Positions 20,361 through 54,600 of a DNA stretch of 64,000 bases are shown here, piece by piece. A model generated the notes under the pieces. It was not told the DNA's origin, did no database searches, and worked only from the letters and a program-made list of their open reading frames with translations. This DNA comes from Galerina marginata (lineage: Eukaryota; Basidiomycota; Agaricomycetes; Agaricales; Galerinaceae). How positions within the stretch are numbered: the stretch's first letter is position 1; the number at the start of each line of letters is the position of its first letter. The stretch is taken from assembly GCA_023014335.1 (NCBI GenBank), contig JAECYW010000005.1:1116001-1180000 (forward strand). The letters are read 5' to 3'. Made by a program: the position numbers and the translations under genes.

Positions 20361-20619
20361 TCGAGCGGAGGCCGAGTGATGAGAGATTGGAACAGGCGCT
20401 GAGATTTGGAACGCGACAAAGTCCATTTCCGGAGTGTGAGAATTCAACTTCCTACCTCTACAGGTGAGTGTAGCGCGCTAACACAAACTGGTGCTGAGAA
20501 ATTAAATGATATTCTGCTTAATAAAACACTTGAGGATATAGGAAATAATGAGAGGAACAAAAAAAATAAGAGAGAGAAGGAAAATTGACAACGAGAGGCA
20601 AAACACGAAATAAATTAGA

Positions 20620-20722
20620 ACACAGTAGGTGGAATCGAACACTGAGGCTTACCAAATAGACCGACCTGCCAGCGTTAGTTCACAGCCTTGGGATCGTGTC
20701 CACTGCACCAAATGACCTTTAT
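20620..20722 (-). other. tRNA-like (Pol III box) segment, copy 1
   Basis: On the minus strand, TTGGTGCAGTGG (20711-20700) resembles a box A and GTTCGATTCC (20640-20631) a box B, about 60 bp apart. The acceptor and T-stem do not pair as in a normal tRNA, so this is a tRNA pseudogene or a tRNA-derived repeat head. A related segment lies in the equivalent place of the other gene pair. Confidence 0.4.
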
Positions 20723-21467
20723 TTTCGGAGTGCAAGTATTATTCTTTGTCGCTCATTTGGCTTACACAGGACTTAGAGCATTATTCGACTTTGACTTGGC
20801 CGCATGGCAAGTTCGAATTTGAACTTGTACTCCCACACTCACGACGCCTCGCACACCCACATCAACAATGCCTCGCACACCCACAACACCTCGCCACCAC
20901 GCCTGCACAACGTGCCCAACCACCACAACGAACTGATGTGTCTTTCGTTTGGCTCCAGTTGACCTTCACTCGAGCCCCCCCTCCAGCTGACTGACCGCAT
21001 TGTCAGCTTGGCCTCTCTGCCGACGTCAGATACAACTGCCCCGCCGCCTCTCATTGGTGTACCGCCTCTACTCTCCCTATCCCGGCCCACCTCTGCAAGA
21101 GAGGTTTCCTGCTCTCTCTCTCTCTCTCTCTTGTTTGTGTTTGGGCTTCAAGGTAAGCCACTTCTTTTGAGCTCAATCGATCGTTTCAACCTGCGAAGGC
21201 TGGCATGTTTGCCTTCGCTTGTTGATACCACGTCTGGCATGTTCGACGTGGTGTTCGTTGGGATGACTTGCTCGCCCATCGTCTACCTTCTTTCTCCTCG
21301 TGTGCGTTCTTGAGCATCCTCGGGAATCCTCCCAAGGGTACAAGAACACCACGCAGATCTGCTTAGACCGGGTTTACTGGTTGTCACCCCCTGTTTTCTG
21401 GCTCGTAAACGTGCTCCGCTAACTTGTCTTCCTCTTCATCCAGTGTCTGCAGCAGAGAATCTACGGG

Positions 21468-22518
21468 ATGCCGGGTGAGTCTTCTCGTTCAGTCAATTCA
21501 ATCTATTTCGCTGATTACTTCAATGATAACAGATACTTATATTGATTGCTATGGGGGTATGCGAGACAGCACCACCCACAGGGCCATTTTCCCCCCCTTT
21601 GAAAGATTGTCGCCTGGTAAGTTCGGCATCAGTTCTGAGCGCAGAATCTTCATTAATGTTCTACAGCTTTCAGTGGCTTGGATGCGCTCTCAATCGCCGA
21701 ATTACAGCAACCTCTCGACTACGCGGTTCCTGGGCTTCAATGCCTTGCACCCAACACCTTCGACGAGCACAACCGGCCCCGCCCAACCAACTTGATTATT
21801 ACATCCCCGAATATGGATTGGATACCAAACCTCAACGAGGATCTCAAGGGTATCCAGGCCCGTACCGATGGCCACTTCTTCACCGGCGACTTCACCCTCT
21901 GGCCTCTATGGTTTTTTAACGGATCTTATTACCTTGCATATATTCGAGCTCGCCCCCCACAGGAGGAAATTGCTGGCCACAAGCACGGCCTGGCCTGGTA
22001 CGACCTTCAGAGGTCGGATTTTATTCTCGAACCCGGCTCTGCTGTCGGCGACATTGGGCGAGTTCGGGATGACCTCGTGAAGGCATTTCTGGATATGAGG
22101 CACAAGCTCTCGAAAGATGTCAAGCGATATTTGGACCGGGCTGACCATTTCATGCCTACCCAGCTGGCAGAACTTCAGTTTTGCGAGACGGGCATGCGTT
22201 TGGCATCGGTCACCCTCTCCTTTGCCCCCCAATTGTACATCCTCACCCTCATGACCGTCACCACTTTCCAGCGCTACTATTTGGAAACACTGGCGTGCTA
22301 CGAGTTTCTCACCAAGTGGAAGAACAGGAAGCTTTTGGAAGGTGATAAACCACATCCGGTTGATAAGGGGATAGTTGGAGCTGTGACCTGTCATGTCGAA
22401 ATCACAGTCAAATATTTCATGGAGGGTGTCCCGGTTTGGCTTGTTCGAACCCCCGATTTGATTTCTCGTCGAATCGCTACTTTCAACCACGTTTTGCCTT
22501 CGGTACCCGGACATATGC
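21468..22518 (+). pseudogene. Gene Y copy 1, 3'-truncated by Helitron-like element
   Basis: Same gene as 55395-57794 (minus). Exon 1 is 21468-21474 (ATGCCGG), exon 2 21533-21616, and exon 3 starts 21667 (continuing SGLDALSIAELQQPLDY). The coding sequence is near-identical to the intact copy up to RTPDLISRR and VPGHM, where it stops at the Helitron-like right end (22519). The rest of exon 3 and exon 4 are absent; the far side of the element lies in copia sequence. A truncated protein ending in element-encoded residues is conceivable. Function unknown. Confidence 0.85.
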
Positions 22519-25500
22519 ACTTGGTCAGAGGCCATTGCTGCGCATGGCAAAAACAAGTTCTTACTTTCAAGGTGAGTCCGACTATAAATAAAGGATAAAC
22601 AAGTAAATAATGCATAGTCCGCTCAAATCTGAAGCTATTAAGATGATCTTATACTCAAAAAAAGCAGAAAAATAAGGCGGTTCTAACAAGCCTAAAACGG
22701 CCTGGTCACGTGACCAGGAAGGCACTGATTTTTGCGAATTTTTTGATACCAAAATCATCAAAATTGGCCCAGTAACGGCTGAGATATGAAAACCATGCAG
22801 GGTCACTATATGAGTGAGAGTATTTCCATTGTCTGCATTAGGAACCATTTCTGCCTGCTATGCAGGCCGGAAAACAAGTTCTTTTACTACGTAAGAACTT
22901 GTAACAAGATTAATTATTAGACTACAATAAGAACTTTGTAACAAGATTAGTTCATACGTCACTTAGTTTTTATCAGATTGCCTTGAAAAAAAATGTGTAA
23001 TTATCAGAAAAATCAGGGCTAAAAGATGGTGTCACATATATATTGTCACATCTCTATGTGACTTACCAAATGCGGAATATTGTTTGAAATACATAGTAAA
23101 TAAGCCATATTGAGGGTTCTTAAGGGTTTTAAAAGAAAATAAAAATACTGATTATTTTTCTTTACCTAACAGGTGGTCTGTGCACACATATCACATGACA
23201 TATCCCTGAGAATATCTTTGTCCAAGTTGGTGCATTACCAAATCCAAGGCAATTGCACAAAGTCCTGCTGTGAGTTTGATTATGTAAGCTTCTAGAACAT
23301 TATTTTTATGTTATTTGGTCATGTTTTGCAATGTTTGGTGTGCCTTTTATGGGTTATCCAGTCAGCTTAACACCAATTTTCGGATTTTCACCAAGTTGAG
23401 CTGGCTGTTTGCCAGATTTGGACACCATGACATCATTGCAAAACATATGTAAATATTTGTACATTATTTTATATTGGTCTTGCTAAGACATTTTAGCATA
23501 TCTAGCTCACTGCAATCTGTTTTAAGTGTAAATTCAGACAAATTTGCGCTTTTTGGGTCGTGTGAACAGGTCACATGACCTAATCGTCCCTGGATACACA
23601 TGCCACATGAAAGCCCTGATTTTTGCGAATTTTTTGATACCAAAATCATCAAAATTGGCCCAGTAACGGCTGAGATATGAAAACCATGCAGGGTCACTAT
23701 ATGAGTGAGAGTATTTCCATTGTCTGCATTAGGAACCATTTCTGCCTGCTATGCAGGCCGGAAAACAAGTTCTTTTACTACGTAAGAACTTGTAACAAGA
23801 TTAATTATTAGACTACAATAAGAACTTTGTAACAAGATTAGTTCATACGTCACTTAGTTTTTATCAGATTGCCTTGAAAAAAAATGTGTAATTATCAGAA
23901 AAATCAGGGCTAAAAGATGGTGTCACATATATATTGTCACATCTCTATGTGACTTACCAAATGCGGAATATTGTTTGAAATACATAGTAAATAAGCCATA
24001 TTGAGGGTTCTTAAGGGTTTTAAAAGAAAATAAAAATACTGATTATTTTTCTTTACCTAACAGGTGGTCTGTGCACACATATCACATGACATATCCCTGA
24101 GAATATCTTTGTCCAAGTTGGTGCATTACCAAATCCAAGGCAATTGCACAAAGTCCTGCTGTGAGTTTGATTATGTAAGCTTCTAGAACATTATTTTTAT
24201 GTTATTTGGTCATGTTTTGCAATGTTTGGTGTGCCTTTTATGGGTTATCCAGTCAGCTTAACACCAATTTTCGGATTTTCACCAAGTTGAGCTGGCTGTT
24301 TGCCAGATTTGGACACCATGACATCATTGCAAAACATATGTAAATATTTGTACATTATTTTATATTGGTCTTGCTAAGACATTTTAGCATATCTAGCTCA
24401 CTGCAATCTGTTTTAAGTGTAAATTCAGACAAATTTGCGCTTTTTGGGTCGTGTGAACAGGTCACATGACCTAATCGTCCCTGGATACACATGCCACATG
24501 AAAGCCCTGATTTTTGCGAATTTTTTGATACCAAAATCATCAAAATTGGCCCAGTAACGGCTGAGATATGAAAACCATGCAGGGTCACTATATGAGTGAG
24601 AGTATTTCCATTGTCTGCATTAGGAACCATTTCTGCCTGCTATGCAGGCCGGAAAACAAGTTCTTTTACTACGTAAGAACTTGTAACAAGATTAATTATT
24701 AGACTACAATAAGAACTTTGTAACAAGATTAGTTCATACGTCACTTAGTTTTTATCAGATTGCCTTGAAAAAAAATGTGTAATTATCAGAAAAATCAGGG
24801 CTAAAAGATGGTGTCACATATATATTGTCACATCTCTATGTGACTTACCAAATGCGGAATATTGTTTGAAATACATAGTAAATAAGCCATATTGAGGGTT
24901 CTTAAGGGTTTTAAAAGAAAATAAAAATACTGATTATTTTTCTTTACCTAACAGGTGGTCTGTGCACACATATCACATGACATATCCCTGAGAATATCTT
25001 TGTCCAAGTTGGTGCATTACCAAATCCAAGGCAATTGCACAAAGTCCTGCTGTGAGTTTGATTATGTAAGCTTCTAAAACATTATTTTCATCTTATTTGG
25101 TCATGTTTTGCAATGTTTGGTGTGCCTTTTATGGGTTATCCAGTTAGTTTAACACCAATTTTGCGATTTTCACTGAGTTAAGCTGGCTGTTTGCCAGATT
25201 TGGACACCATGACATCATTGCAAAACATATGTAAATATTTGTACATTATTCTAGATTGGTCTGGGCGACACATTTTAGCATATCTAGCTCATTCAAATCT
25301 GTTTTAAGCATAAATTCACACAAATTTGCGCTTTTTGGGTTGTGTGAACAAGTCACATGACCTAATCAACCCTGGATACACATGCCACATGAAAGCCCTG
25401 ATTTTTACGAATTTTTTGATACCAAGATCATAAAAATTGGCCTAGTAATGGCTGAGATACAGAAACCATGCAGGGTCACTATAGCAGTGGGAGAATTTCC

Positions 25501-31522: not shown

Positions 31523-32936
31523 TGTACAGTGCAGATGAGGTGAATGGTAGCAGTGATGTGAGGCTGACAGAGAAGGTCCATGATGTCATCAAAAAGCTAA
31601 TACATATTGAAATGGGTGGACAAATGTTGTCATGGGAGAAAAACGGCAGTGACGTGATGCATCTCCCATGGCTGCGGTGTACAAAGTATCTGCATCCTTT
31701 GCACCACCTCCAATCTCAATGAATTCCTTTCTGCAGCAGTTGGACACTCCTGCAACAAAGCCAGCCGCCTGTGCCTCAACGGAGGGACTTACAAAGATGT
31801 TATTCATATCTCTGACTCCCTCTCCCTTCCTAAAATCTGCGAGTACATGTCAGACAGCCATTTGCATCAATTATAACTGCCCGATGTACCCCTCTGACGT
31901 CCCACTCCTGTGGCACTGTTATTGACCCTTCCCGCCCTTTCTGTCTTCCATGCCAATATCCAATCAAACAGACTCAGGCTGCCTGGTGTGTACATCCCGC
32001 GGCAGCACGAATCGCACAGCAACATCCACTTGTGTTCATTGACTCAGAGTGTGCTAGGTGCTCAGCGATCATCAACGACATTGACATGGTTGAAGGAGGT
32101 GGAAGGCTGGTAATATCAACAAAGGTGAGTACTTGTTTATTTTAGTGCTTGAATACATGTTTACCTTGTATCTAGTCCCCTCGTTCACTTGCCGTGCCAA
32201 TAGATCGTAACTCTATGCCAAGGGCTGGCCCTTGGGAGAACAAGGTGGAAATTGACATCAGCCACATAACTGGAGCCAGCAACAGACGAGGAAACTCACC
32301 AAGGGCTCATCCCTGCCGCCAAGGCCCTCTTTCTTCCTCCTTGAAGTCAACAAGGAAGACCGCCACCCACGTCGGTAAATACTGCCCGATGTAGTAATAC
32401 TGTACGTACCAAGAACCCCGTCAACTCCTCTTCTGTGCTGCCCTTGTTGACCCCGATGCTTCCATTTCTGTCTTCCATGCTCCAATCGAACCCAACTGGT
32501 CACGCCCAGGTCGCCGCCGCACATTTTCCCGTGGCCGTACAAATCAGCCTTCAAGGGCTCATTATGCGAGCGCAGCCGCCAGTTCAAATATTGAGGGACA
32601 ATATACTCTCCACTGGACCTTTCCATAAAGGTCTTCAAGCCAAGAGAAAATGGCGAATGTAGTAGGCACTTCATCGGATGATTAATGTTACGCACCACAA
32701 GGACCAAATGTAAGACATACCGGGAGTTGTGACACAGGGATCCATGAACAGATTAAAATACACCCATTCGCAATGTAAGACGGAGCAGCACGACAATATA
32801 GCATAACAGACCTGTCGGCAGAGCCAACCCAGAAGGTTTCTTGCCTCCAACTTATGTTGGCCCACGAGATAGCAGTAATTTCCGCGCCAATATTAACTGA
32901 CTGCTTGAGAAGCCCAGATAGCAGATCATATATTCT
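31523..32936. other. Low-copy sequence flanking the LTR element; possible gene debris
   Basis: No gene recognised. Less AT-rich than the surroundings. One plus-strand stretch (31980-32110) ends at a donor-like gtgagt (about 32126) with an acceptor-like tag about 50 bp on, suggesting an exon-intron-exon remnant, but no family is recognised. It is the 5' flank of the LTR element; the same locus resumes at 41247. Confidence 0.3.
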
Positions 32937-33346
32937 TGTAAGATAGCTTTTCCCATCTTCCTACCTTTCCTTTCCATCTACTTGATACTATCTGGACTAT
33001 AGGGTATGGCTAGTTACATATGATGTCACATTACTGTGACATCTGGTAGATATAGTCATTCTCGTCACATTTGTCAATATAACTCTCTTACTATCATCTT
33101 CAAGAAGCCTACACGCTTACTTCCCTCACTACCTGCTGTTAACCAGGCTGAGGAGTACGCTAAGGCCTACTGACTGATCTTAGAGATCTACATACGTAGA
33201 TCTAAGAGGGAGTTACCCTTATCAGCCCAACTATTTCTCTTATCTCGCTCTCCGACTTTGGTTTATACCAAGGTCATCACACCTCTGCCCGCCCGAAGGT
33301 CGTAGGCGTTTCACCACTGAACCAGAGACGCTAACAGTGTCTCACA
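32937..33346 (+). repeat. 5' LTR (410 bp)
   Basis: Starts TGTAAGATAG, ends GTGTCTCACA. It contains the palindrome-like gatctacatacgtagatc and a long-range inverted repeat with the adjacent primer-binding region (acagtgtc ... gacactgt). Confidence 0.95.
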
Positions 33347-33418
33347 AAGGTGGACACTGTGGGAGACGTCTTTACCTTTACCTGGTCGGCAACCTTCAAG
33401 ACTTCAAGCTTTATCACC

Positions 33419-36400
33419 ATGGGATCCCTTGATGATCTAGCTAAGTTCTTCTACAACAAACCCTCATTACTTGTCTTTGGCTCCACATATTCCATATCTG
33501 TGGCTGCCAGAGACCTCTTCTGCCAGTGGATCCCATCGGATCATCTTGTCAATATATTGGTTAACCCCACATTTTTTCAACGGATCACCTTTGTTGTTGC
33601 CCAAACTCAATTTCTCATTAAATCGGCAGCAGATATCTTCAACCGGGACACTCATTTTCAAATCACCCCAGGGGACACTCTACATCAAGCTCTAAATGGT
33701 GCAAGATATGGTGAAACTAACCACGTTATAGCCTTATGGACTTCCTTCACGAAGCGCATGCAAATGGCGGTCAGGCTCCTCGATCGGGTCTTCAAGGACG
33801 GTCAATACCCCGACATGGACGAGTTGAACCGATTCGTCGAGCGGGTGTCAGCACCACCCCCAAGAAAGGCTCCCGCAAATGTTCGCAAGGCTGATCCGCC
33901 ATCGTCCCTGATCTCGGAGCCAACCCGTTCGATGATCAATGGCGGTTCACACGGTCGATCAACTCAGACCTCACCTTCAACTTCAACCCTAACATCCAAG
34001 TTGTCCGCCGTTCCATCACGCTCTCCTGCTCAAATTGTTTCAAGCCCCATATCGACGTCTAACAAGACAGGTCCAGTCACAAGATCTTTGGCATCCAGGA
34101 CAGAATGCAGTCGCAAACATGACGAGGAACACCGTCGAACACAGATGGGAGGATTAGGCAAGCAGGAAGCTCAAGAGAGACAAGCAGTGGAAAGAGAGAG
34201 GGATCTGGGTGCGGACGCCAGAGTAAGTCAAACAGTTTTGCATCAAAATACACTCGCGCTCGGCCATCCTGTTGTAGAAGTCAGCCCACCTTCTTTGAGC
34301 CATCAAGCAAGCTCTCAAATACCAACTGGATCTCGTTCTTTCCCGCCAGAACTTGCTAACATCTCAACCTTGCACCCTATTGTGCTACCCGTGCTGTCCA
34401 CCAAGTCCGACTTTACCAATGGATCAGAATTTGACGAGGAAAATTCACCGCCAGAAACGTCACGGTTCCTCGACGTCGCCATTGATTGTTGGAACCGAAG
34501 TGCGAAACTTCCATCGCCTTCGGTTACTGCTACTCGACCTCTGCATACAGAGTCGCCGAGTGCAGTTAGGCTTTCAACTCCGTACACGGAGGCGAAGCAC
34601 CCTCCAGCGTCTGCGGCTCAACTCAATTTCATTCAATCCATCCAGCCGCAACTCCGCAGCCCGTCCGACACTTGCTTTTCAGTACATGAATCCGATCTCG
34701 AAGGGCAAGGCTTATTGTCAGAAATACCAAGGACATTCAGTACGGCTTTCAATAGTTGGAATCAAAGTACGCGTGGCCTTTTGTCTTTCGTTTCCGCGAT
34801 TCGCACTCCACGCCCAGAGTTCGCAAACGTGGTCGCACCATCTTCAGGGTCTCTTACAAGCACAATCCTCCTGCGGTCAAGTCTTTGTTTCGAAGACCAG
34901 ACTTCCAGAGGTCAACTCGCCATCCTGTTTCGGGATCGTGAGTTGTTTGTCGTACCTCGTAACTTGTGTTCTTTAACCACAATATCACCCCCTTTGTCCG
35001 CTCTCCAACTTCATTCTCTGTCAATGGCTCAATCAGTTCTGAACACTTCTCCTACGGCATGCCAGACAGATCCAGCCACAAGATTTCCAGCATTCGAGGC
35101 AGAAAGTGGTCACGAGAAACTCTGGAATCAAACACGCTTGGAAGGATTGGGTAGACAACAGGAGGACCAAGAGACGAGTGTGGCGGTACAAGGTGGAGAT
35201 TCAGATGCAGAGAATCAAGACGGCATTCCAGCAGGCTTCACCATTTCGGCAGCCGTTATTTCGAAAATGCGCCCTCTCACCGCACCAGATGTTTGCAAGA
35301 CAACACTTCTTGTCAACGCATTCAACCCTGAACAAGAAGATCTGCCAACAGGACCTCCACAGCTCCAGGACTTCGAGGCGATGCCCTTTCGTTGGAATCA
35401 TAGTGCAGAAGTCCTTTTGTCGACGGTTATCGAATCTCGAATACTGCCTACGGAGTCACTGAGTGCGGCTAGGCCTCCAGCTTCGGTGTCGCGACCTGCT
35501 CTCCCTGCCTTTATCCATCCGCGATTTCGCAGCCCATCCGCGCCTTCAACAATGAAGATCATAGCCATCGAGTCACGTTTCCGCAGCCCGTCTGACTCCC
35601 GCGCATCCAAGTCGCCATCTGATGTTCCATCCACCTCACCAATAACTGTAGTTAGTGACGCAGCAGACGCTGGGGGGGAAAGTAGGTGCATGGTCGAGTA
35701 CAAGGACTTCACAGCACCTCATCGTCATCCGCTGTGTCCCTCCGGTCATTCATTCAAATTCAAATCTTCTCAATTGGTTTCACGATGCGTCCTTTCAACG
35801 TGCGCACAAGATTCTTTGTCAAGATCTTCAATGGTTTTGGCAGCAAATAGCTTGAAGGAAAACGGTCGAACCAATGTACTGGAATTTTCTGGACAAGAAG
35901 AGGAACAAGAGGCAAAGCTAGTCAAAAGAGACAGAGACCGGGATGCGGAAAAGCGCGTGGACAGAGTGAGTTCACTGATCTCCATTCGAGTTGCACCATC
36001 GCTCGGCTATTCTCTTGCAGAATTTTGCAAGCCGCTTTTGAGCAGTTGGCCTAGCCTTTGGAGACCAACCAGTCCTCGTTCTGACTTGCTTGAGTCTAGC
36101 GGCATCAAAACTTCACCCCCTGTCACGTCAATCATGCCGCCTCTCACCCAGTCCAATGGCCTGGACGGATCCGACATCAATGATAAAGGCATGCTGTCAG
36201 AAACACCGACGACCGTTGACGCCGCCTTTGTTTGTTGGAATCGGAGCGCGGAAAATCCATCGCCTTCAATTACCGCAACTCGAACTCTGTATACGGAGTC
36301 ACCGAGTACGGTTAGATCTTCAACTCCGTACACGGAGGCGAAACGGTCTCCAGCTCCTACAGCGCCGCATACTCACTCTCCAAGCCCATCCATCCAACCG

Positions 36401-39400
36401 CGATTTCGTAGCCCATCAGGCTCACACTTATTCATTGTTCCATCCACGTCATCGATATCCGACAACGGTGACAATTCTGCAACACTCCTTCTCCTAATTC
36501 CAAGCTCGACCTTACGGGAGTCAGGTCTTTGTTTCGAAGACCTAGACCCTGGACGTCAACTTGTAGTCCTGTTTCGGGACTCCAAGTCGTTTGTTATGCT
36601 TCGGGGTTTATCGTCTTTTGATGAGACTGTAGAGACACTAACAGGAAGGCCTCCAACTTTCACGTCACGCCCAACTCCTTCAACTTCGATGGTCCAGCCA
36701 AGGCTTCGGTGTCTGTCTGGCCCTCTTCCTCTTTCCCAGGATGCCAATCCCTCAAACTCACCATTCGGTCAGTTGAATCCAACACGGCCACTTTCCGAGA
36801 TCAGCGCAAATCCAGTAAAGCAACCTCCGTCTCTCGCACCATGGGCAGACCTCTTTCCTTTTGCCCTACCGCATCTCTGCGACCCTTCCGACCACCATCA
36901 ATATCAACTTAGGGCAACCGTAATAGTAGAAGGAGAGACAGCGAATGCTGGGGGGGCTAATAGGCAGAAGGACTCCAGTGACGACTTCAACTTCGCCTTG
37001 CGATATCACCCTCCGCCATCTCTCCTGGTTATTACAGCTCAAACTCAACATATGGAGTCACCGAGCGCGGTCACGTCCATAACACTGCGTATGGGGGCGA
37101 AACAACATCCGGCTTTGAAGTTACGGCTTATTCTTACTCCCTCGATCCAACCACATTTCCACAGCCCTTCCATCCTGCGTTTACGTCCATTCAATACCCC
37201 TCCGGCGCCAACTCTCATTGGACGAACCTTCAACAAGCAACTTTCACTTTCAGAAACACAACAGATCCTCAATGTCAGCCGCGTTAGTTGGAATCGAAGT
37301 GCGAGAGTCCCATCGCCTTTGATTACTGCTACTCGAACTCTGCATACAGAGTCACCGAGCGCAGTTAGGTTGCGAGTTCTGCATACAGAATTCAGGCAGC
37401 CTCTGACTACTTTGCTATATCTGTTGGCGCTCCAGAGTGCGATCCCTCAGGTGTCAGGTCTTTGTTTCGAAGACCAAACTCCTGGAGGTCGACTTGCAAT
37501 CTTGTTTCGAGACTGCAGGTTGTTTGTTGCCCAGCTAGACTTGCCTTTCTGGTCTGCAGACACCTACGTGCAGCTCACGCCACCTCCAACCATCTATACA
37601 TCACCATTGTCGCTTTTCGGTCAAACTTCTGTTGCCCTACCTCGTCTACCCAGTCCGTCCTTGTACATCTCATCAAGCCGCCGACAATATCAGGACATTA
37701 ATGGATCCGACGTCGGCGATCGGGGCATACTATCAGAAACACCGAGTACCGTTGACACCATCCTTGTTTGTTGGAATCGAAAGCCGCCCAGTGCGGTTAG
37801 GCTCTTTACTCCGAATACAGAGACGAAACGGCCTCCATCTTACATGGTCCCACATACTCTTCCTCCGTCAATCCAACCGCATTTTCATAGTCCATCTGGG
37901 CTTCGTCCATCTCCACATCTGCCTCCGTTCAGTCCAGTTTGCCTCGAATTTCTAGTCATCAACAAATCTAACCATTGCGATCAAGACAAGCGAGGTTCAA
38001 TACCTGAAACATTGCGGACTCGGATTATCAGCACCGTCCTTGTTTGTTGGAATCGGAGAGGAGATGGCCCATTCCCTCCGGTTACTGTGACTCGAGCTCT
38101 GCACACAGAGTCGTCGAGCTCGGTTAGGCTTTCAACTCTGTATACAGAGACGAAGCAGCCAACCTCTATCTCAGTAGCACTCGTCATGTCGACGTTGTTC
38201 AAGTTTTTCGATACACAAATTCTGACGTGGCACCATACCGAGCACATCATAAACTGTACCCGATCATGTGTAGCATTCATGATAACCAATGGATCGAGTT
38301 TAAAGAACGCTGGATGGTGGTGGAAAGGAAGGGAAGGAAAGAGACCGGAACAGAAAGTGAGAATTGACTGTATTTTAACAACCAGGATGGATATTGCCGC
38401 GATTCTTTTTGAGCTTGAAAGCCTTCGTTTAAGCGATGATTTTGGCCGCTCGAACGTCTCAGTCCTTTCACTCTTTGCCTCGAAAACCGATCAACAACTT
38501 TCAGATTCATCGCCCCAATGCTCTGCACTCGTTCGGTTCGCTTCTGTCGTCACAGGCTTATTCCAACGGCCTCGAAAAGACCTTTCCGACTACACCTGGA
38601 GCTTATTGAGACGCCCGTTGCTCGCCGCTCAGTGCTCGCTTTTGTCAATCTCGCATTTTGGACAAATCAGTAGATATCTCACCAACGCGGCCGCCATTCT
38701 TGATATCCAAGATATCTACGGAAAGCTCTCAATGCTCTCTTTCCAGCAAGTTCTCATTCGTCAACCTGCGTTTAATGCTCCTTTCGCTATCGTCAACGTC
38801 ATCCTTCCTGTTATACACCTTATCGCAGATCATCGGATCCGAATTCAGCTACGATTTTTAGTGCTATGGAAAGCCCTGATTCATAGCTTTCCGGTGATAT
38901 TCAGTTTATGGCGATACGATAGGTGGACGACGCACAATAACGGATTGTTTGGGACTGGTATAAGAAACTCTCAGCCCCTCAGGTCATTGAAGCAAGGCTC
39001 TACCTTTTCCTCACTCAACAGAGCTATAAAACATGCAAACCAGTACTCAATCGATCCCTTTTGCTTCTTCAGTTATCACCTCATTGCTTCAGTCTGGTTA
39101 TGTAGAGTATTTTCAGGATTTCGACGATTTTCCACCTACCTTGGGCTCCTGTCACTCAAATTTGACGATTTCTACATCAACAAAATGGCGTCGAGCACTC
39201 CATTCCAGCAAGCATACAACAATCATCAACTGTCCGCTCTTTCTGCCGCTATAACCAATGGACCCTGGGATACATACTGCCCTATGAAGGATCATCAACT
39301 TCGAATTTCGCTACGATCTTTTGCGGACTGCAAAGTCCTAGTCCGTAGCTTTCCGACGATATTAAGTTTATGGCAGAACAATATCTGGAAAGCTTACAGG

Positions 39401-39919
39401 AGCGGAATCCTCATGGCCAACATCAGAAACTTGAGGTTTAAGTTTGTCAACTTGCTAGCCACCGGTCACGCCATTTCTGCACTCGGAAGGCTTACATGGA
39501 ATGCATCTTACCTTCCAAAGGAATTCTGGAGAGGTTATCGTCTCTTTATTGATGGGTTATGGTCTAAGGAGTGGATATCTCGGTTGTTTACTGGATTTCG
39601 ACAAATTTTCGATTACCTCATCGACATCTTGCTCGTTCTCTACGATTTTAGGCTTGGTCGAAAGCCGTTAATCGCATCATTCAAGCAATTCCTCAAATAT
39701 GGCACATCGTCAAGTATTGCTCCCGGAAATTGGCTTCTTAACCAATTAGGCTCATTTTTACGAATTGTACCATCACACCTCATCAGCTTCGTTTATCGCG
39801 ACAATTCTGGGCCCATTCGAAAGCAGTCGATTGCGCCGTTCATCCGATATCGCATACGTGGCCATTTACCCAATGATTTCCCCAGCCGTCGCAATACAGA
39901 GTTCCTACCTTCACTTTGA
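33419..39919 (+). CDS. Large pol-less ORF of the LTR element (2166 aa), function unknown
   Basis: Not recognised. The ATG at 33419 (caccATGG, good Kozak context) is chosen over the GTG at 33350 because eukaryotic starts are ATG; the frame is uninterrupted for 6.5 kb. The N-terminal about 150 residues (MGSLDDLAKFFYNKPSLL...) look globular and could be Gag-like by position only. Residues about 160-1600 are Ser/Pro/Thr-rich and built of degenerate repeats: six modules around CWNRSA ... TATRTLHTESPSAVR with TPYTEAK, four around SGLCFEDQTPGGRLAILFRD, three around an E/R-rich block (RDRDRDAEKR), and repeated IQPRFRSPS. The C-terminal about 550 residues are hydrophobic/aromatic and hold a duplicated unit (LVLWKALIHSFPVIFSLW; CKVLVRSFPTILSLW). 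No transmembrane or catalytic role can be assigned. Confidence 0.75.
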   Translation: MGSLDDLAKFFYNKPSLLVFGSTYSISVAARDLFCQWIPSDHLVNILVNPTFFQRITFVVAQTQFLIKSAADIFNRDTHFQITPGDTLHQALNGARYGETNHVIALWTSFTKRMQMAVRLLDRVFKDGQYPDMDELNRFVERVSAPPPRKAPANVRKADPPSSLISEPTRSMINGGSHGRSTQTSPSTSTLTSKLSAVPSRSPAQIVSSPISTSNKTGPVTRSLASRTECSRKHDEEHRRTQMGGLGKQEAQERQAVERERDLGADARVSQTVLHQNTLALGHPVVEVSPPSLSHQASSQIPTGSRSFPPELANISTLHPIVLPVLSTKSDFTNGSEFDEENSPPETSRFLDVAIDCWNRSAKLPSPSVTATRPLHTESPSAVRLSTPYTEAKHPPASAAQLNFIQSIQPQLRSPSDTCFSVHESDLEGQGLLSEIPRTFSTAFNSWNQSTRGLLSFVSAIRTPRPEFANVVAPSSGSLTSTILLRSSLCFEDQTSRGQLAILFRDRELFVVPRNLCSLTTISPPLSALQLHSLSMAQSVLNTSPTACQTDPATRFPAFEAESGHEKLWNQTRLEGLGRQQEDQETSVAVQGGDSDAENQDGIPAGFTISAAVISKMRPLTAPDVCKTTLLVNAFNPEQEDLPTGPPQLQDFEAMPFRWNHSAEVLLSTVIESRILPTESLSAARPPASVSRPALPAFIHPRFRSPSAPSTMKIIAIESRFRSPSDSRASKSPSDVPSTSPITVVSDAADAGGESRCMVEYKDFTAPHRHPLCPSGHSFKFKSSQLVSRCVLSTCAQDSLSRSSMVLAANSLKENGRTNVLEFSGQEEEQEAKLVKRDRDRDAEKRVDRVSSLISIRVAPSLGYSLAEFCKPLLSSWPSLWRPTSPRSDLLESSGIKTSPPVTSIMPPLTQSNGLDGSDINDKGMLSETPTTVDAAFVCWNRSAENPSPSITATRTLYTESPSTVRSSTPYTEAKRSPAPTAPHTHSPSPSIQPRFRSPSGSHLFIVPSTSSISDNGDNSATLLLLIPSSTLRESGLCFEDLDPGRQLVVLFRDSKSFVMLRGLSSFDETVETLTGRPPTFTSRPTPSTSMVQPRLRCLSGPLPLSQDANPSNSPFGQLNPTRPLSEISANPVKQPPSLAPWADLFPFALPHLCDPSDHHQYQLRATVIVEGETANAGGANRQKDSSDDFNFALRYHPPPSLLVITAQTQHMESPSAVTSITLRMGAKQHPALKLRLILTPSIQPHFHSPSILRLRPFNTPPAPTLIGRTFNKQLSLSETQQILNVSRVSWNRSARVPSPLITATRTLHTESPSAVRLRVLHTEFRQPLTTLLYLLALQSAIPQVSGLCFEDQTPGGRLAILFRDCRLFVAQLDLPFWSADTYVQLTPPPTIYTSPLSLFGQTSVALPRLPSPSLYISSSRRQYQDINGSDVGDRGILSETPSTVDTILVCWNRKPPSAVRLFTPNTETKRPPSYMVPHTLPPSIQPHFHSPSGLRPSPHLPPFSPVCLEFLVINKSNHCDQDKRGSIPETLRTRIISTVLVCWNRRGDGPFPPVTVTRALHTESSSSVRLSTLYTETKQPTSISVALVMSTLFKFFDTQILTWHHTEHIINCTRSCVAFMITNGSSLKNAGWWWKGREGKRPEQKVRIDCILTTRMDIAAILFELESLRLSDDFGRSNVSVLSLFASKTDQQLSDSSPQCSALVRFASVVTGLFQRPRKDLSDYTWSLLRRPLLAAQCSLLSISHFGQISRYLTNAAAILDIQDIYGKLSMLSFQQVLIRQPAFNAPFAIVNVILPVIHLIADHRIRIQLRFLVLWKALIHSFPVIFSLWRYDRWTTHNNGLFGTGIRNSQPLRSLKQGSTFSSLNRAIKHANQYSIDPFCFFSYHLIASVWLCRVFSGFRRFSTYLGLLSLKFDDFYINKMASSTPFQQAYNNHQLSALSAAITNGPWDTYCPMKDHQLRISLRSFADCKVLVRSFPTILSLWQNNIWKAYRSGILMANIRNLRFKFVNLLATGHAISALGRLTWNASYLPKEFWRGYRLFIDGLWSKEWISRLFTGFRQIFDYLIDILLVLYDFRLGRKPLIASFKQFLKYGTSSSIAPGNWLLNQLGSFLRIVPSHLISFVYRDNSGPIRKQSIAPFIRYRIRGHLPNDFPSRRNTEFLPSL

Positions 39920-40816
39920 CGAATTACCCCACCGCATTCCATCGGCTCCGAATTCCGTCAAGATACTTCGCACATTTTAAAGGTATTACACATGCGGTTC
40001 CGCAGATATCTTAAACGTAGCAAGTCGCCCGGTATTCGCTCCGGAAATCAGCTTTTTGGCAACATTTGCGCAGTTTCACAAATTCTGTTGTGGTACATCA
40101 TCGCCCCGACTTCCTGCGACGATTTTGGACGCGTTCGAAAGCGCTGATTCACAGCTCTCTGGGGATATCCGGAACATGTTTATCTGACCGGTGGTTGCTT
40201 CGCAAATTGGGATTTTGATGATTTTGACCCTTCACTCCTATGTTTTTATGCCTCATCCATGCTCCATGTTTCCTCCAATATGCCTACTTCCTGTTCCTGT
40301 CAACTCTTCTATCCTTTCTGGCCAGTGTGTCTCCTCCTCCTCCAATGAACTGCCAATGTTCTGTCTCATCTCCTAGCACCCTCAAACTCTTGCCTTGCAA
40401 TTTCTTGAGGCTGGGGGGGCTATATGAGGATTAATTTTCTGGGAGGGCTATAGGTATAGTAGGCTGATCAAAGCCTACTCTCAGTGATCCCTGTTCTAAA
40501 TGGGCCTGGCCACCTTTATATATGACTACCAAATTTTTTCTATTCATTTAAAGTTTCACTTCTTCTTCTTGGATCTAACTTTGCCACTTCATTGGAGTTC
40601 ATTTTCTGTTTTTAACTATGGGCTCTTAGCACAAATCCATTTTTCCATTTTTACTATTTTCTTTGCTCATTTACAAACTCACTTCACCTTTCATTTTATC
40701 CTTTAAATTTTGGATTCCCTCCATCCATCCCCAACACCTCCTTGTTTTTAAATTTCTTTCCAACCTCAAGAAATTTTCTTTGATTTCCAACATCTATTCT
40801 ACTTTTTGTCAGCGCA
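39920..40816 (+). other. 3' untranslated internal region of the LTR element
   Basis: About 0.9 kb between the ORF stop and the polypurine tract. Pyrimidine-rich after 40500, with no reading frame of note. Confidence 0.6.
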
Positions 40817-40836
40817 GATGGAAAGTGGGGGGGCTC
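40817..40836 (+). promoter_or_regulatory. Polypurine tract of the LTR element
   Basis: gatggaaagtgggggggctc lies directly before the 3' LTR, in the position where plus-strand priming occurs in LTR retroelements. Confidence 0.75.
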
Positions 40837-41246
40837 TGTAAGATAGCTTTTCCCATCTTCCTACCTTTCCTTTCCATCTACTTGATACTATCTGGACTAT
40901 AGGGTATGGCTAGTTACATATGATGTCACATTACTGTGACATCTGGTAGATATAGTCATTCTCGTCACATTTGTCAATATAACTCTCTTACTATCATCTT
41001 CAAGAAGCCTACACGCTTACTTCCCTCACTACCTGCTGTTAACCAGGCTGAGGAGTACGCTAAGGCCTACTGACTGATCTTAGAGATCTACATACGTAGA
41101 TCTAAGAGGGAGTTACCCTTATCAGCCCAACTATTTCTCTTATCTCGCTCTCCGACTTTGGTTTATACCAAGGTCATCACACCTCTGCCCGCCCGAAGGT
41201 CGTAGGCGTTTCACCACTGAACCAGAGACGCTAACAGTGTCTCACA
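40837..41246 (+). repeat. 3' LTR (410 bp)
   Basis: Same sequence as the 5' LTR by eye over its whole length; followed by the target duplication attct. Confidence 0.95.
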
Positions 41247-42287
41247 ATTCTCAATACACCAGAGCTACCTTAATTCGTTTGCGGTTTAAGGGAATTACTG
41301 TCAAGGTGAGCGAAAGCAAGGCGTATCTCCAGTCAAAACCTGCTGCCTGTCGGAAGAGATACACACTGCATAAATTGCTTCATCTAGACATGGCAGAATA
41401 TTATGCTTTGGTGCAAACCAGAATGCAGTAGGCTGCAGCATTTGGCAGCAGATGACGTTTAAATTTAAACCGGGAAAGCGGACAAAAGAACCCCCTGTTC
41501 GATTCTCTGGCAGCTTACTTAATCATGACTACTCGTAAATCTCGGCTAAGAAATCACTCCCTGCACCTCAAAGTGATCCCGACCTCCGCGCAGTTTCAAT
41601 ATCCCAGCGGATCCCAGTGATCTACGCTGCATCAAAGTTACTTGCTTGATATTATATGTAGTTCCCCAAAACAGTAGAGTCAGAGGAAAGTCCAGGACAG
41701 TGAGTGTGCATGCCAAAATCCACAAATGCTTAGTACTAGGTGAATAAAATGATCACATTGTATATTTAGAGTATTTCTAAGAGGACTGACCAAGAGAGGG
41801 ATACAGAAAGTGCAGGTTTTGATACTGGGCAATAAAGCGGGATAGCGTTGGGATAAAGTGAGTAGTGCCATACTTGTTATGGATGCGGCATCCGCAGCAG
41901 CCCTGGCAGCTTTCTGTGCTTTCTTATCTGCTGCCTGAGCACGCATCCATGCAGTGATGGTCACCCCATGGTCTTCATCTTCATCTTCTTCCTCCCGGCC
42001 TCCAAATACAGTGCTAATCAGATAATCAGTCATCTGTATGCAACTCGGAAAATAAGGATCGCATACTCTTGCCACCAATCCAGGAGGTCTGCAAGATCAT
42101 CGTTTTCCATATCCTTCATTGCGTTAACAAGCGCATCGTAAAACCCTTGTACGGCCAACAGCCCTCGCCTGACCCGCCTTGGCTAAGAAGACTCTGGTCT
42201 GAGACGACAAAAACTTTTGAGGCATTCAGTTGGTGATGGTGAGCTGAAACAATAACGAAAAACTTACAATAGTCGCCGCATATGCAA
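41247..42287. other. Flank of LTR element with a possible minus-strand exon
   Basis: Continuation of the locus at 31523-32936. On the minus strand about 42020-41880 an acidic run (REEEDEDEDHG) is followed by WMRAQAADKKAQKAARAAADAAS and then a donor-like gtaagtatgg, which resembles an exon end. No family recognised and the remainder shows nothing clear. Confidence 0.3.
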
Positions 42288-45387: not shown

Positions 45388-46506
45388 CACACCCCTGATC
45401 TGGCCAGTCTCCAGAACACAAGAAATATTGGCTAAGGCCTAAGACCCATTTGTTCTCTGCAAAATGCAACTTTGGAAGGTGAAAGGGGTTTGGTAAGAAG
45501 ATCTGCCACTTGTTCATCAGTTGAGATGAAGGATGGTGAAATAAGTTCAACAACAACAGCGTCCCTGAGCCAGTAAAACCGCAAGTCCAAGTGCTTCATG
45601 CGCCCATGGTGTTCAGGATTCTTGGAAATACTGAGAGCACCCTGGTTGTCGACATGCATAATAGAAGGCTGGGTGATAGTGTGCCCAAATTCATGAAGAA
45701 TATTGCGCATCCAACATATCTCCTTGCCAGCCTCTACTGCAGCTACATATTCAGCCTCTGTTGTAGACAGTGCAATAATGCCTTGGAGCTTGCTTGACCA
45801 ACCAATTGAACCACCAGCCATAGTGGTAACATAGCCACTTGTGGACTTTCCAGTATCAACAGAATCACCATGAGCAGAGTCAGTAAATGTAATGAATGGT
45901 TCTTGACCATGTTCACCACAATACTGTAACTTGTACTCAAGAGTGCCTTTGAGATATCTGAATAGGTGCTTGACAGCAGCCCAGTGTTTAGGTCCAGGAT
46001 TGGAGTTGAAGCGTGCCAAATAGGCCACAGTGTAAGCAATGTCTGGGCGGGTCATTGTAGCCAAGTACTGCAAAGAGCCAACTGCACTGAGGTATAGGAC
46101 ATTGCGCATTTGTTCCACCTCTTCTGCATTTTGAGGACTCATGGTTTTGGACAATATAGTTCCAGTAGCCATTGGTGTTTGGACAGGGTGGCAGTCAGAC
46201 ATACCATACTTCTCCAACATGTCCAGAATGTACTGGCGTTGATGGAGTGTGATAGTCTTGGTTTGACGGTCTCTGCCAACTGCAACACCAAGTAAAAACT
46301 GTGTGGGTCCCAAATCACAAAGTGTAAAATGTGCAGCCAGTTGCTTTACAGCCTTGTCAATAGCAGCATTAGACTTGGATGCATAGGTGATGTCATCAAG
46401 GTAAATGGGAACAATGATCTTGACAACTCCATCAGAATAGATGTAAACAGAGCGGTCAGATTCAATGCGTTTGTAACCCATTTCAGTGAGTGCCTTGTGC
46501 AGTTTG

Positions 46507-48270
46507 ACTTGGTCAGAGGCCATTGCTTCACATGGCAAAAACAAGTTCTTACTTTCCAGGTGAGTCCGACTATAAATAAAGATTAAATAAGTAAATATTG
46601 CATAGTCCGCTCAAATCTGAAGCTATTAGGATGATCTTATACTCAAAAAAAGCAGAAAAATAAGGCGGTTCTAACAAGCCTAAAGGCCCTGATATTTACA
46701 AATTTTTTGACACCAAGATCATCAAAATTGGCCCAGTAATGGCTGAGATACAGAAATTGGTGCAATCTGAAGCTATTAGGATGATCTTATACTCAAAAAA
46801 AGCAGAAAAATAAGGCGGTTCTAACAAGCCTAAAGGCCCTGATATTTACAAATTTTTTGATACCAAAATCATAAAAATTGGCCAAGTAATGGCTGAGATA
46901 CAGAAATTGGTGCAGGGTCACTATGTCAGTGGGAGAATTTCAAACGATAGCATTAAAAACCATTTCTGCCTGCTATGCAGGCCGGAAAACAAGTTCTTTT
47001 ACTATGTAAGAACTTGTAACAAGATTAATTATTAGACTACAATAAGAACTTGTAAAATGATTAATTCATACGTCACTTAGTTTTTATCAGATTGCCTTGA
47101 AACAAAGTGTGTAATTATCAGAAAGATCAGGGCTAAAATATGGTGTCACATAGGTATTGTCACATTTCTATGTGACTTACCAAATGCGGAATATTGTTTG
47201 AGATACACAGTAAATACACTATATTGAGAGATTTTAAAGGCATTAAAATAAAATAAAAATACTGAGAATGTTTTTTTTTACCTAAAAGATGGTCTGTGCA
47301 CACATATCACATGACATATCCCTGAGAATATTTTGGTTACAAGTTCTTACATAGTAAAAGAACTTGTTTTCCGGCCTGCATAGCAGGCAGAAATGGTTTC
47401 TAACGCAATGGTTTGAAATTCTCCCACTCATATAGTGACCCTGCATGGTTTTCATATCTCAGCCATTACTGGGCCAATTTTGATGATCTTGGTATCAAAA
47501 AATTTGTAAATATCAGGGCCTTTAGGCTTGTTAGAACCGCCTCATTTTTCTGCTTTTTTTGAGTATAAGATCATTCTAATAGCTTCAGATTTGAGCGGAC
47601 TATGCATTATTTACTTATTTAACCTTTATTTATGGTCGGACTCACCTAGAAAGTAAGAACTTGTTTTTGCCATGCGCAGCAATGGCCTCTAACCACGTCC
47701 AAGTTGGTGCATTACCAAATCCAGGCAATTGCACAAAGTCCTGCTGTGAGTTTGATTATGTAAGCTTCTAAAACATTATTTCCATGTTATTTGGTCATGT
47801 TTTGCAATGTTTGGTGTGCCTTTTATGATTATCCAGTCAGTTTAACACCAATTTTTGGATTTTCACCAAGTTGAGCTGACTGTTTGCCTGATTTGGACAC
47901 CATGACATCATTGCAAAACATATGTAAATATTTGTACATTATTTTAGATTGGTCTGGGCAACACATTTTAGCCTATCTAGCTCACTGAAATCCATTTCAA
48001 GTTTAAATTTACACAAATTTGCGCTTTTTGGGTCATGTGAGCAGGTCACATGACCTAATCGACCCTGGATACACATGCCACATAAAAGCCCTGATTTTTA
48101 CAAATTTTTTGATACCAAAACCATAAAAATTGGCCAAGTAATGGCTGAGATACAGAAATTGGTGCAGGGTCACTATGTCAGTGGGAGAATTTCGAACGAT
48201 AGCGTTAGAAACCATTTCTGCCTGCTATGCAGGCCGGAAAACAAGTTCTTTTACTACGTAAGAACTTGTA
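46507..48270 (-). mobile_element. Helitron-like non-autonomous element, long form, with nested copy (1764 bp)
   Basis: TACAAG (48270) to GACCAAGT (46507) on the minus strand, inside copia RT. It carries a 150-bp internal tandem duplication (aatctga at 46614 and 46764) and a second element of the same family at 47338-47698. The 3' hairpin loop differs (GCCATTGCTTCACATGGC on the plus strand) while the 5-bp stem is kept. Confidence 0.88.
47338..47698 (+). mobile_element. Helitron-like short element nested in another copy (361 bp)
   Basis: TACAAG (47338) to AACCACGT (47698). The host element elsewhere reads attttggTccaagttgg (8053 region), which gives the empty site. The right terminus has decayed to CCACG. 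Confidence 0.92.
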
Positions 48271-51634: not shown

Positions 51635-54600
51635 TCAAAATCTTTCCAGTCTAAAATCATCTCTTACTGCATCCAGCTCCATGTCATCCACTATTTCTGC
51701 ATCATTTTCATCACCCTCATTACCCGACCATTCCAACTCATCTTCCAAAATATCACCATCTACATTAAACTCTTCAACATTTTCATTAAATTCATATCTC
51801 CTTGCTTCTGCAAGCTCTTCTTCACTTGGTCCCCATGGATCATCTGAAATTGAAGGAATAATTCGAACAAAAGGCTCCCATGTCACACATAAGCGTAATA
51901 AATGCTTTTTTCGCTCATTCAATTGATAAACAATATCAGGGTCAATTTGCGACCACTGAATTGCAGTGATGACAATAGCCCATTCCTCTCTCATCCATTG
52001 TTTCATAGACAACTTCTCTTCCTTAAGTCTTCTTTCCTCTTCAACACATCGGTCAAAGTCCAGTAGAGCCTTAATTCCAGCTCTTATATCCTCATTTCCC
52101 AGCCAAGCAGGTATTTCCATATCACCATCAAGATCATCTGTAAGTCCAACATCCTGCCAGATATCATCATCAACATCAAGTTTGAATAGCCCATCCAATT
52201 GAATTGACAATGGAGCAATAGCACCTTTGGGTGCACTTTTTTGCTTAATCATTTGAGCCAATTGAGCACATAATTTGTTGTAATTTCTTGCTAGAGTCTG
52301 AATCCCAGGCTCCTTCCTTTTTATCTGGCCTTCAGTATGCTTTTGAAGTTTTGAATGATTTGAAGTATTTCTGTAAGCACACTCCAAGCTTTCAATTTCA
52401 AACTTCCGATGTCTTAAACGGTCCCGAATTCTCTGTTTAATAGCCAAGGCATTTAATCGCACTTTAAGAAACTCGTTTCCAACTAGCCTGTCCAGGTTTA
52501 ATCGGCCGTCAACTGATAATTTGGCTTTTTTAGAAGCAATAGATTTTTGTGATTTCTTTAGTTTTTCTTCGAGGCTTTCCATCAATTCTTGAATTGAACT
52601 TGCAGTCAAATCATCGTTATATTCCCCAGTTATTAGCATTGTTTCAAATTTGAGAAGTTCTTCCTTGTAATTGTCAACATTTTTTGATAAAGCCAATATA
52701 TCTTCAATCTCTTTATTTGCCAGGTTTTTTGACTGCCGTGTGAGAGGCTTGGTCTGCTCTATGACTTGAGCATTCCATTCCTCTCTTAAATCCTCTTCAT
52801 TACAACCAGTTGTATAAACAGCATTTAAGGTTTCCATAGCTGAATTCTTTTTGGAAATAGTAGCAATCCATTTTTTCCGTAGCCAGTTTCCTAAACCCAG
52901 CAGAGACTTTTGATCCAAGTGTTTTACTTTGGTATCAATAGTATGTATGCGGTTATAATATCCAGAGACACGACAGGTTGGAATTAAAGATTTTATTGCA
53001 CTCCAAAATCTTTCACAACCTTCACCATCCGTTAAACCAAATCCTTGACACTTGCGAGGATGGTAAATAATTTGACAGGGCCATTGATGCCCATAAGCAT
53101 GAAATACTGATATTCCAAAGACGAGTCGATCCAGAAAATCATCCAAAAAGCCATATTTGACACAGCTACGGTGTAGCTGACAGCCAATATCATAGAGAAC
53201 ACCAATACGCATAGAATCAGGAATATGTTCAAAAAGCCTTTTCAATAAGCACAGGGCATAATGCTGCTTTTCTCCAGCAGAAGTCATGTTTACAAGCCAT
53301 AAAACACGGTCGTGTCGGCATAACAAAGCCATAAGTCCAGTATCAGCAAAAAACAATGTGCTTGCTCTGATACGACGTTCATCCGCAGCAGTAAAAGAAT
53401 CGTTGCAGCCATCCAGAACTGAAATAGGAACCCGCATGCCAGGTTCAAAATCTGGGCCATCTGTATTACTACTCTCCTTTGCTTGGCCTTTTCTTGTGTT
53501 TTTTGATTTTCCCTTGTCAGGTTTTGTTTTGGATGGTCTGACTTCTTCGACAGTAGCCTCCATTTCTGCAACATCTTCTTTGGGTACAAATATAGTTTCG
53601 GGATGGCTATGAGGAGCTTGCCATGCATTTCCCTGAGACTTACGACGCTTTTGGGTAAAACAAGCATCAATGCAGACAATAGCATCAACTCTATTATATT
53701 GAAACAATCAAAAAATTAACAATATATAATGAGTAATAAAGCTTACAGATCATTCTCTTTGTGCCAATTTTCTCCACCAAAACAAAGAGGACATCTTTCA
53801 CGGAGATATTCACTTGGACGGTCATGAAACTGTGACTGATGTGGAATTTGATCTGCATCAGCTAAAATAGAAGTCAATCTACAAAAGTCCAGTAACAAGA
53901 AAGAAATACCATACATGTGTCTGATAAGTCTATTATTTCATTGTCAGGTATGTTTTGAGGTTCATAGTGCACTGTATTCATAATTATGCATGAATATACT
54001 TCAGTTATTTAGCCAAATAAGACCTACCAGATGATTCATTCTCATCTTCTTGATCCATAGACAGAATTGATCCCCGCACACGATTTAAATACTCCCTCAT
54101 CATCAGGTTTTTTGTGTTTGTCAAAGTAGCATACCAATGCAAAGCACTTCCAAACCGACCCCGTAGACTATTCTGTTGATCAAATAAGTCATTGTAATTC
54201 TGTTCAATTAAACACTTACTCGAGTTGTGAGTTTGAAAGAGCGAGCACTAAGAAATCCCTCAAGTGTTTCACACCAAGCTGTTGTGTTTGGAGCTGCATT
54301 GACAAACAGCTCACGTGCATAGTCAAGAACAGTCAAATCAACAGCAAGAGATGGTGACGATGGTGCACAAGGAAAAAACCCCAAAGATAGAAGCTGTAAT
54401 GCAGGTTCAGTGCAAGTGCACAGCTCAATCTTTTTAATTTCTAAAGCACATTTAATATTTCAAGAAATAACTAGAATTGAAAGACAAACTTACTTTCAAA
54501 ATGAATACAAGTAACCTCCAAAATGCGGCCTTTTTCACATCCCAAACACTCTTGTGCTGTTCTAGAGTCTTTCAAATCACGAAGCCCAGATGTTTCCCGC

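Follow-up and report, generated by a model that had tools for sequence, protein, structure and literature searches.

A 64,000-nucleotide window of the Galerina marginata genome (GenBank assembly GCA_023014335.1, contig JAECYW010000005.1, positions 1,116,001 to 1,180,000 of the forward strand) contains a long terminal repeat (LTR) retrotransposon whose interior is taken up by a single open reading frame (ORF) of 2166 codons in which no polymerase (pol) domain can be recognised. We found that this element belongs to a young non-autonomous LTR family with very recent insertions, that amino acids past residue ~150 of the ORF evolve neutrally in alignable stretches, and that selection appears to maintain an open frame but not the sequence within it. 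We consider it rather probable that the fitness of this LTR lineage depends on ribosomes crossing nearly the whole RNA, such that the absence of stops alone is selected over ~6 kb and the product past a 150-residue Gag-derived domain is irrelevant.

Searches for copies of the element covered one 69.3-Mb genome of 43 contigs. Using the N-terminal domain of the ORF as a query we identified 14 family copies, 12 of which have a single frame open over 1774-2423 codons (stop to stop), with the frame interrupted in the copies on contigs C19 and C3; a further copy on C40, in which the N-terminal domain was not found, has a frame of 1191 codons. Base composition predicts about 4 stops per 100 codons, and across nine copies the five other frames contain 2.6-6.1 per 100 and the ORF frame 0. 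Among body alignments, none of 9,580 codon pairs in the ORF frame had a stop in either copy; in the other two forward frames a stop was present in exactly one copy at 290 of 9,569 and 331 of 9,550 pairs, and in both copies at 199 pairs each, with the copy pairs in these counts not being independent. The mean difference between open copies in aligned body blocks is 20-28%; at 0.1 changes per site, a neutrally evolving body from which stops are not removed would be expected to gain 12-19 of them per copy. Stops in the ORF frame are visible only to translation of that frame, and because the body frame is contiguous with that of the N-terminal domain, translation from the ATG would be the simplest reading. 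Coding in another frame or strand was rejected, as all five other frames hold stops and the differences by codon position have almost no three-base rhythm.

Selection on amino acids was estimated as the ratio of nonsynonymous to synonymous rates (dN/dS, omega) under GY94, from codon pairs in gapless, same-phase stretches of within-clade nucleotide alignments, where clade A comprised the window copy, C42a and C31, and clade B comprised C23a, C12, C42b, C4, C23b and C6. The analysis was restricted to high-scoring segment pairs of at least 150 bases, to ungapped in-phase codons and to blocks of at least 20 codons. These nine of the 12 open copies entered the omega estimates and the counts of stops; C39a and C39b were omitted for their near-identity to the window copy and C2 because it was only partly fetched, and the interrupted C3 and C19 and the truncated C40 were omitted as well. 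Body omega was 1.067 in clade A and 1.019 in clade B for the middle part, and 0.940 and 0.953, respectively, for the C-terminal part; none of these values departed from 1 (twice the log-likelihood difference, 2dlnL, at most 0.7), and the N-terminal domain alone did so. Four disjoint copy pairs gave a body omega of 0.967 (0.88-1.10), leaving out one copy at a time gave 0.958-1.010, the comparison between clades gave 1.03, and intra-copy repeats, 57 of 59 of which are in phase, gave 0.98. Differences at codon positions 1, 2 and 3 were near equal in the body (.213/.240/.237 in the middle part of clade B), and sliding windows on the window copy agreed with neutrality.

Neutral simulations, our negative control, returned an omega of 0.97-1.04, also at tenfold CpG mutability. 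The positive control, the gag region of the autonomous partner elements described below, gave 0.056 (10 loci; of their 45 pairs, the 22 that share 60 or more aligned codons; 4,958 codon pairs) versus 0.97 for the alignable part of the body, which does not support the notion that the giant protein as such matters. That notion came from a reading of the same DNA made from its letters alone (hereafter the sequence-only reading), which had taken 6.5 kb without a stop beside identical LTRs to suggest that the protein is important to the element or a recent acquisition. Part of this claim stands, as the frame is selected and residues 1-150 are constrained; the sequence past ~150, where alignable, is neutral. 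The comparison of dN/dS and stops among copies that this reading had recommended yielded an outcome it had left unforeseen, namely a dN/dS near 1 and yet open frames in most copies. Two further lines were set aside. A mild body constraint suggested by NG86 (0.45-1.33) was similar in control frames, and GY94 with transition bias (kappa 3.9-5.4) moved the body to 1. Homologous stretches read out of phase might have served as proof of sequence indifference; they make up 1% of body columns within clades, in runs of up to 21 nt, and seven longer runs (at least 45 nt), probably two events, all lie near the 3' end of the ORF, where C23a and C4 read homologous DNA in another phase. They are supportive only there.

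In finer windows, constraint on amino acids starts at the initial Met and extends to around residue 150; further upstream there are few changes and no codon pattern. Omega for this N-terminal domain (GY94) was 0.295 in clade A and 0.527 in clade B (2dlnL 36.5 and 62.7, respectively) and 0.455 (0.34-0.62) for the four disjoint copy pairs; per 50 residues it was 0.15-0.23 in clade A and 0.33, 0.92 and 0.50 in clade B. A profile of nine family N-termini matched 10 of 10 partner proteins (hmmsearch, E 2e-12 to 3e-10), and a profile of ten partner N-termini matched 9 of 9 family proteins (E 4e-12 to 2e-5), with reversed decoys in the same file appearing in neither hit table (E up to 10). Alignment of the family and partner domains with hhalign scored 97.6%, and 0.7% when the partner alignment was reversed, while a single-sequence genome search with the partner's domain recovered three family copies (E 2.7e-5 to 5e-3). 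These profile matches indicate that the ORF starts with a homologue of the N-terminal, pre-capsid part of the partner's Gag-Pol. In a search for homologues of the partner's domain elsewhere, 0 of 576 candidates reached E 0.001, and a fold predicted from the single sequence had a mean predicted local distance difference test score of 46.5 and was not used.

At its other end, the ORF stops 693-929 nt before the 3' LTR in ten measured copies and in C4 (699 nt), which places its end either directly at a 3' non-coding module that carries 7-12 stops in the ORF's frame or within ~250 nt upstream of it. Identity in the aligned part of this module is 91-96% within clade A, 80-95% within clade B and 75-81% between clades; between clades just 430-1,440 columns of the ~6,500-base ORF align, and the LTRs give a partial alignment only. 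Within clade A, the body diverges by about 20%, the LTRs by 3% and 11% from those of the window copy, and the non-coding 3' stretch by 4-9%. The 3' module is thus better conserved than the body, which is nevertheless the sole long stop-free stretch. In one subfamily (L034, L029, L032 and L028, on C2, C3, C6 and C23b) the ORF stops at about the same homologous place, corresponding to residues 1852-1855 of the window frame, and the distance from stop to LTR is 782-783 nt in C23b and C6, the two members measured.

The anatomy of the window copy (Table 1) is that of an LTR retrotransposon, with identical TG...CA LTRs, a 5-bp target duplication, a primer-binding site (PBS) and a polypurine tract (PPT). 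Pfam searches of the whole ORF gave nothing above cut-off (the sole match, at E 0.54, scored 10.9 bits where 20 are required), and separate searches with the N- and C-terminal pieces gave nothing at E 0.1; the protease, reverse transcriptase (RT), RNase H, integrase and chromodomain of autonomous Ty3/gypsy elements (chromoviruses) have no Pfam match in the element. A divergent pol hidden in the ORF was rejected on the strength of these searches. Protein homologues of the ORF were sought elsewhere, and 0 of 5,205 candidates reached E 0.001. The sequence-only reading had described identical 410-bp LTRs, an ATTCT duplication, a polypurine tract, a TGG-type primer site and a single 2166-codon ORF without protease, RT, RNase H or integrase motifs, had called this a parasitic LTR element without recognisable pol, and had proposed a profile search of the ORF ends; all of these descriptions hold, no pol domain was matched in either end, and the element proves to be recently mobile with an open frame under selection.

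A search by LTR, which the same reading had advised, identified identical LTR pairs at three sites on C39 (the window copy included), pairs at 97% on C42 and 89% on C31, and a lone match on C5; more distant matches were 71-74% identical over about 145 bases, some of them paired. The three C39 copies, each 8310 bp long, differ pairwise by just 1-2 bases and are separate insertions, because they carry different target duplications (CAAGA, CACGC and ATTCT). LTR pairs were present in 9 of 15 loci fetched, ten with the window copy, with an LTR identity of 99.8-100%, and all ten LTR-paired copies have 5-bp target duplications, the flanks having been read by eye. The three near-identical copies lie in the same orientation inside 278 kb (C39:879250-1157246), a clustering that may reflect local or site-biased insertion.

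The PBS 16-mer GGTGGACACTGTGGGA occurs at 36 sites in the genome, and the backwards-read pattern at 0. By coordinates, 14 of the 36 lie in the pol-less family and 18 within about 1.2 kb of a partner N-terminal domain; the remaining sites, at C23:3928438, C39:1903086, C39:1229648 and C40:3404867, fall in neither group and may belong to interrupted partners or further satellite families. The PPT pattern was found at 33 genome sites at up to two mismatches (control 0). The order PBS, RT, PPT was identified around open frames of 2553-2580 codons at C1, C2, C12 (twice) and C42. In one such partner copy, L040, a 2575-codon frame starts beside the same PBS and has Pfam matches to RVT_1, RNase H, the H2C2 integrase zinc finger and a chromodomain, with its rve match falling below the Pfam cut-off. 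The tRNA 3' end complementary to the PBS is present at four genomic sites, for which ARAGORN labels conflict (Cys twice, Gln once, none once); by eye only, with no tool call, these four genes look like intron-bearing tRNA-Ala genes with a TGC or CGC anticodon. Judged by the PBS, PPT and coding segment that it has in common with the chromovirus lineage, the element is a non-autonomous satellite of chromodomain Ty3/gypsy elements in the same genome, and the autonomous relative that the sequence-only reading had suggested looking for is thereby found.

In L040/L052 (C12:2737400-2749000) a second ORF of 850 codons lies behind gag-pol and ends just before the PPT. No significant Pfam match was obtained in the 793 codons of it tested, and it has no similarity to the pol-less ORFs. 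Neither the 3' region of the partner nor this second ORF (queried without its first ~56 codons) showed similarity to the body, and an origin of the body from either was rejected.

Table 1. Features of the element in the window (coordinates from the first letter of the window)
Feature	Position	Strand	Remarks
Target-site duplication, left copy ATTCT	32932..32936	.	read from sequence
5' LTR, 410 bp, TG...CA	32937..33346	+	100% identity to 40837-41246
PBS	33348..33364	+	16/17 bases complementary to tRNA 3' end TCCCACAGTGTCC-A-CCA
Single ORF	33419..39919	+	2166 codons from ATG plus stop; 2194 codons stop to stop; first ATG at 33419, context ACCATGG
N-terminal ~150-residue domain of ORF	33419..33868	+	purifying selection; homologous, by profile, to N-terminal domain of partner Gag-Pol
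ORF body	33869..39916	+	stop-free; amino acids neutral where alignable; partly in-phase internal repeats
3' non-coding module, ~690 nt, PPT at its end	40148..40836	+	common to nine compared copies, 75-96% identity over aligned part
Polypurine tract GGAAAGTGGGGGGGCTC	40820..40836	+	abuts 3' LTR
3' LTR, 410 bp, TG...CA	40837..41246	+	100% identity to 5' LTR
Target-site duplication, right copy ATTCT	41247..41251	.	read from sequence

Elsewhere in the window, two ORF pairs that are closely similar by eye (593/513 and 306/345 aa) flank the element in opposite orientation at 16925-22598 and 56547-62302, and look like either the arms of a large inverted duplication or a second kind of mobile element present twice. 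By their motifs, we take the ORFs at 3946-5415 (+) and 45432-46544 (-) to resemble a Ty3/gypsy integrase and a piece of copia RT/RNase H, respectively, and a 690-aa ORF at 51635-53707 (-) is presumably similar to KDZ-type transposases.

As to mechanism, we give an even chance to a satellite on chromodomain Ty3/gypsy elements whose RNA needs translation from the ATG to near the 3' module, the content of the body being irrelevant. Enzymes of the partner would copy and insert the element RNA in trans, the element's 150-residue domain would engage the partner's Gag particles, and translation beginning at the ATG would have to continue nearly as far as the conserved 3' module. With an early stop, some ~6 kb of the RNA would be left bare of ribosomes and so open to nonsense-mediated decay, or the RNA would be kept out of the packaged pool in some other way, so that what counts in the body would be ribosome passage and not the product. 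RNA surveillance is the reason for openness that we favour. The genome encodes the zinc-binding domain of UPF1, a core decay factor, and in Ty1 a chain terminator beside the start codon of Gag is described as making the RNA unstable when Gag is absent (PMC4974528).

A number of points weigh against this explanation. In the one autonomous copy examined, gag-pol stops ~2.9 kb short of the 3' LTR, which means that a long post-stop stretch is tolerated there, although that stretch is mostly filled by the 850-codon ORF, and mini-Ty1 elements without functional products are described as transposing with a helper (PMC4974528). The evidence comes from one genome only. The nine copies compared were picked for their open frames and contain zero stops by construction; the argument for openness rests on the 12 of 14 open copies and the divergence between them. 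Residues of about 450-900 and 1275-1650 of the window copy (stop-to-stop frame) have no usable clade A alignment and are outside omega, third positions in the positive control are close to saturation (0.37-0.62 different), and the value of 0.92 in clade B belongs to residues 50-100, inside the N-terminal domain. Finally, the three codon positions of the body are not alike in base composition (position 2 has 34% C and 18% G), and compared with simple expectation the body has more Ser, Asp and Glu and less Cys, Arg and His.

The main rival to this reading is a nascent-chain tether, in which the N-terminal domain joins the partner's assembling Gag during translation and the long open body keeps the chain on its own RNA, which would favour packaging in cis. 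It would account at once for a conserved N-terminal domain and for a body that is merely long and open, it fits the frame lengths held in the 12 open copies, and Ty1 RNA is reported to reach the assembly site during translation, via nascent Gag (PMC3945221). Against it, the same paper reports that Ty1 Gag has no cis-preference for its encoding RNA (PMC3945221), and mini-Ty1 elements with up to 5 kb of internal deletion and no functional products of their own are described as still transposing (PMC4974528); we regard the tether as possible but doubtful. We also think it unlikely that a very long polypeptide works by length or disorder, as spacer, condensate or filler, with hardly any demand on its sequence. 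The body is rich in Ser, Pro and Thr and departs mildly from the composition expected from base content (Ser 13.1 versus 10.5%, Asp 4.5 versus 3.0%, Cys 1.8 versus 3.0%, Arg 7.3 versus 9.2%, Tyr 1.4 versus 3.4%), and stop exclusion does not account for its low Cys and Arg. However, copies are as different from one another at codon position 2, which is largely decisive for hydrophobicity, as they are at position 3, and the low Tyr is largely due to stop exclusion and a general lack of TpA, which is depleted in all three codon phases (0.29, 0.61 and 0.63 of expectation; nine copies), even beyond the reach of stop exclusion. The composition bias may be a relic of coding ancestry or the result of weak selection on bulk composition.

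The remaining explanations fare worse. That an omega near 1 conceals a mix of purifying and diversifying selection on a real protein is very unlikely: while two windows exceed 1.5 (1.54 and 1.59), no body window departs from 1 (2dlnL at most 2.3), the position differences are nearly flat, and the two clades, the between-clade comparison and the intra-copy repeats all lie within 0.94-1.07. The conventional giant structural protein with a conserved sequence that the sequence-only reading had proposed could explain the predominance of open copies, but is already contradicted by an omega of about 1 past residue 150 in alignable stretches; together with the change of phase near the 3' end in C23a and C4 and the lack of a Pfam match, this makes it highly improbable. 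Accident of youth or composition has a negligible chance of explaining the open frame, as the near-identity of the three C39 copies is contradicted as an explanation by copies 20-28% apart in the body that are still open and by other frames that turn stops over freely.

Long conserved openness is usually taken as proof of the importance of a protein; here openness and amino-acid constraint separate inside one ORF, with the border near residue 150 and the partner gag serving as an internal control for that separation. If selection for openness is the correct reading, the family would be a natural test system for the effect of translation on retroelement RNA (stability, routing, packaging), an example of how a parasite element can stay almost complete in length while having little product to conserve, and the equivalent among retroelements of translation-dependent defective viral RNAs. 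It would also caution gene finders that a conserved 2000-codon ORF may encode mostly nothing selected. A literature search of top-ranked and mainly open-access papers yielded no LTR element described as selected for openness alone, which is weak evidence of novelty.

Among known systems, extra ORFs behind pol are described in plant Retand elements, some of them non-autonomous (PMC11963269), and the Athila elements of Arabidopsis are described as including pol-less families with gag or gag plus env ORFs, some intact, that are under purifying selection and presumed to be mobilised in trans (PMC2410132). The Galerina element is likewise a whole family without pol that is presumed to be moved in trans; unlike the Gag and Env ORFs of Athila, its ORF consists of a 150-residue Gag-Pol domain followed by ~2000 open codons that, where testable, are neutral for amino acids. 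TR-GAG elements consist of terminal repeats plus gag. Our element resembles them as a non-autonomous LTR element with a gag-related ORF, but it has no capsid or nucleocapsid Pfam match, only the N-terminal pre-capsid domain is common, and for most of the ORF no relation to gag was detected. Large retrotransposon derivatives (LARDs) are described as having a non-coding interior. They have been reported in the basidiomycete Laccaria (PMC3411680). Like LARDs, the element has a long internal region without pol and would be moved by others; unlike them, it has a selected open frame in the great majority of its copies. A defective RNA of clover yellow mosaic virus reportedly needs an open frame and not its sequence, a result attributed to White in 1992. 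The likeness to such translation-dependent defective RNAs would be that openness is needed and sequence is not, a pattern that the evolution of the present family fits; the difference is that those belong to RNA viruses and were shown by experiment, whereas here the case is a retroelement and the support is an evolutionary pattern.

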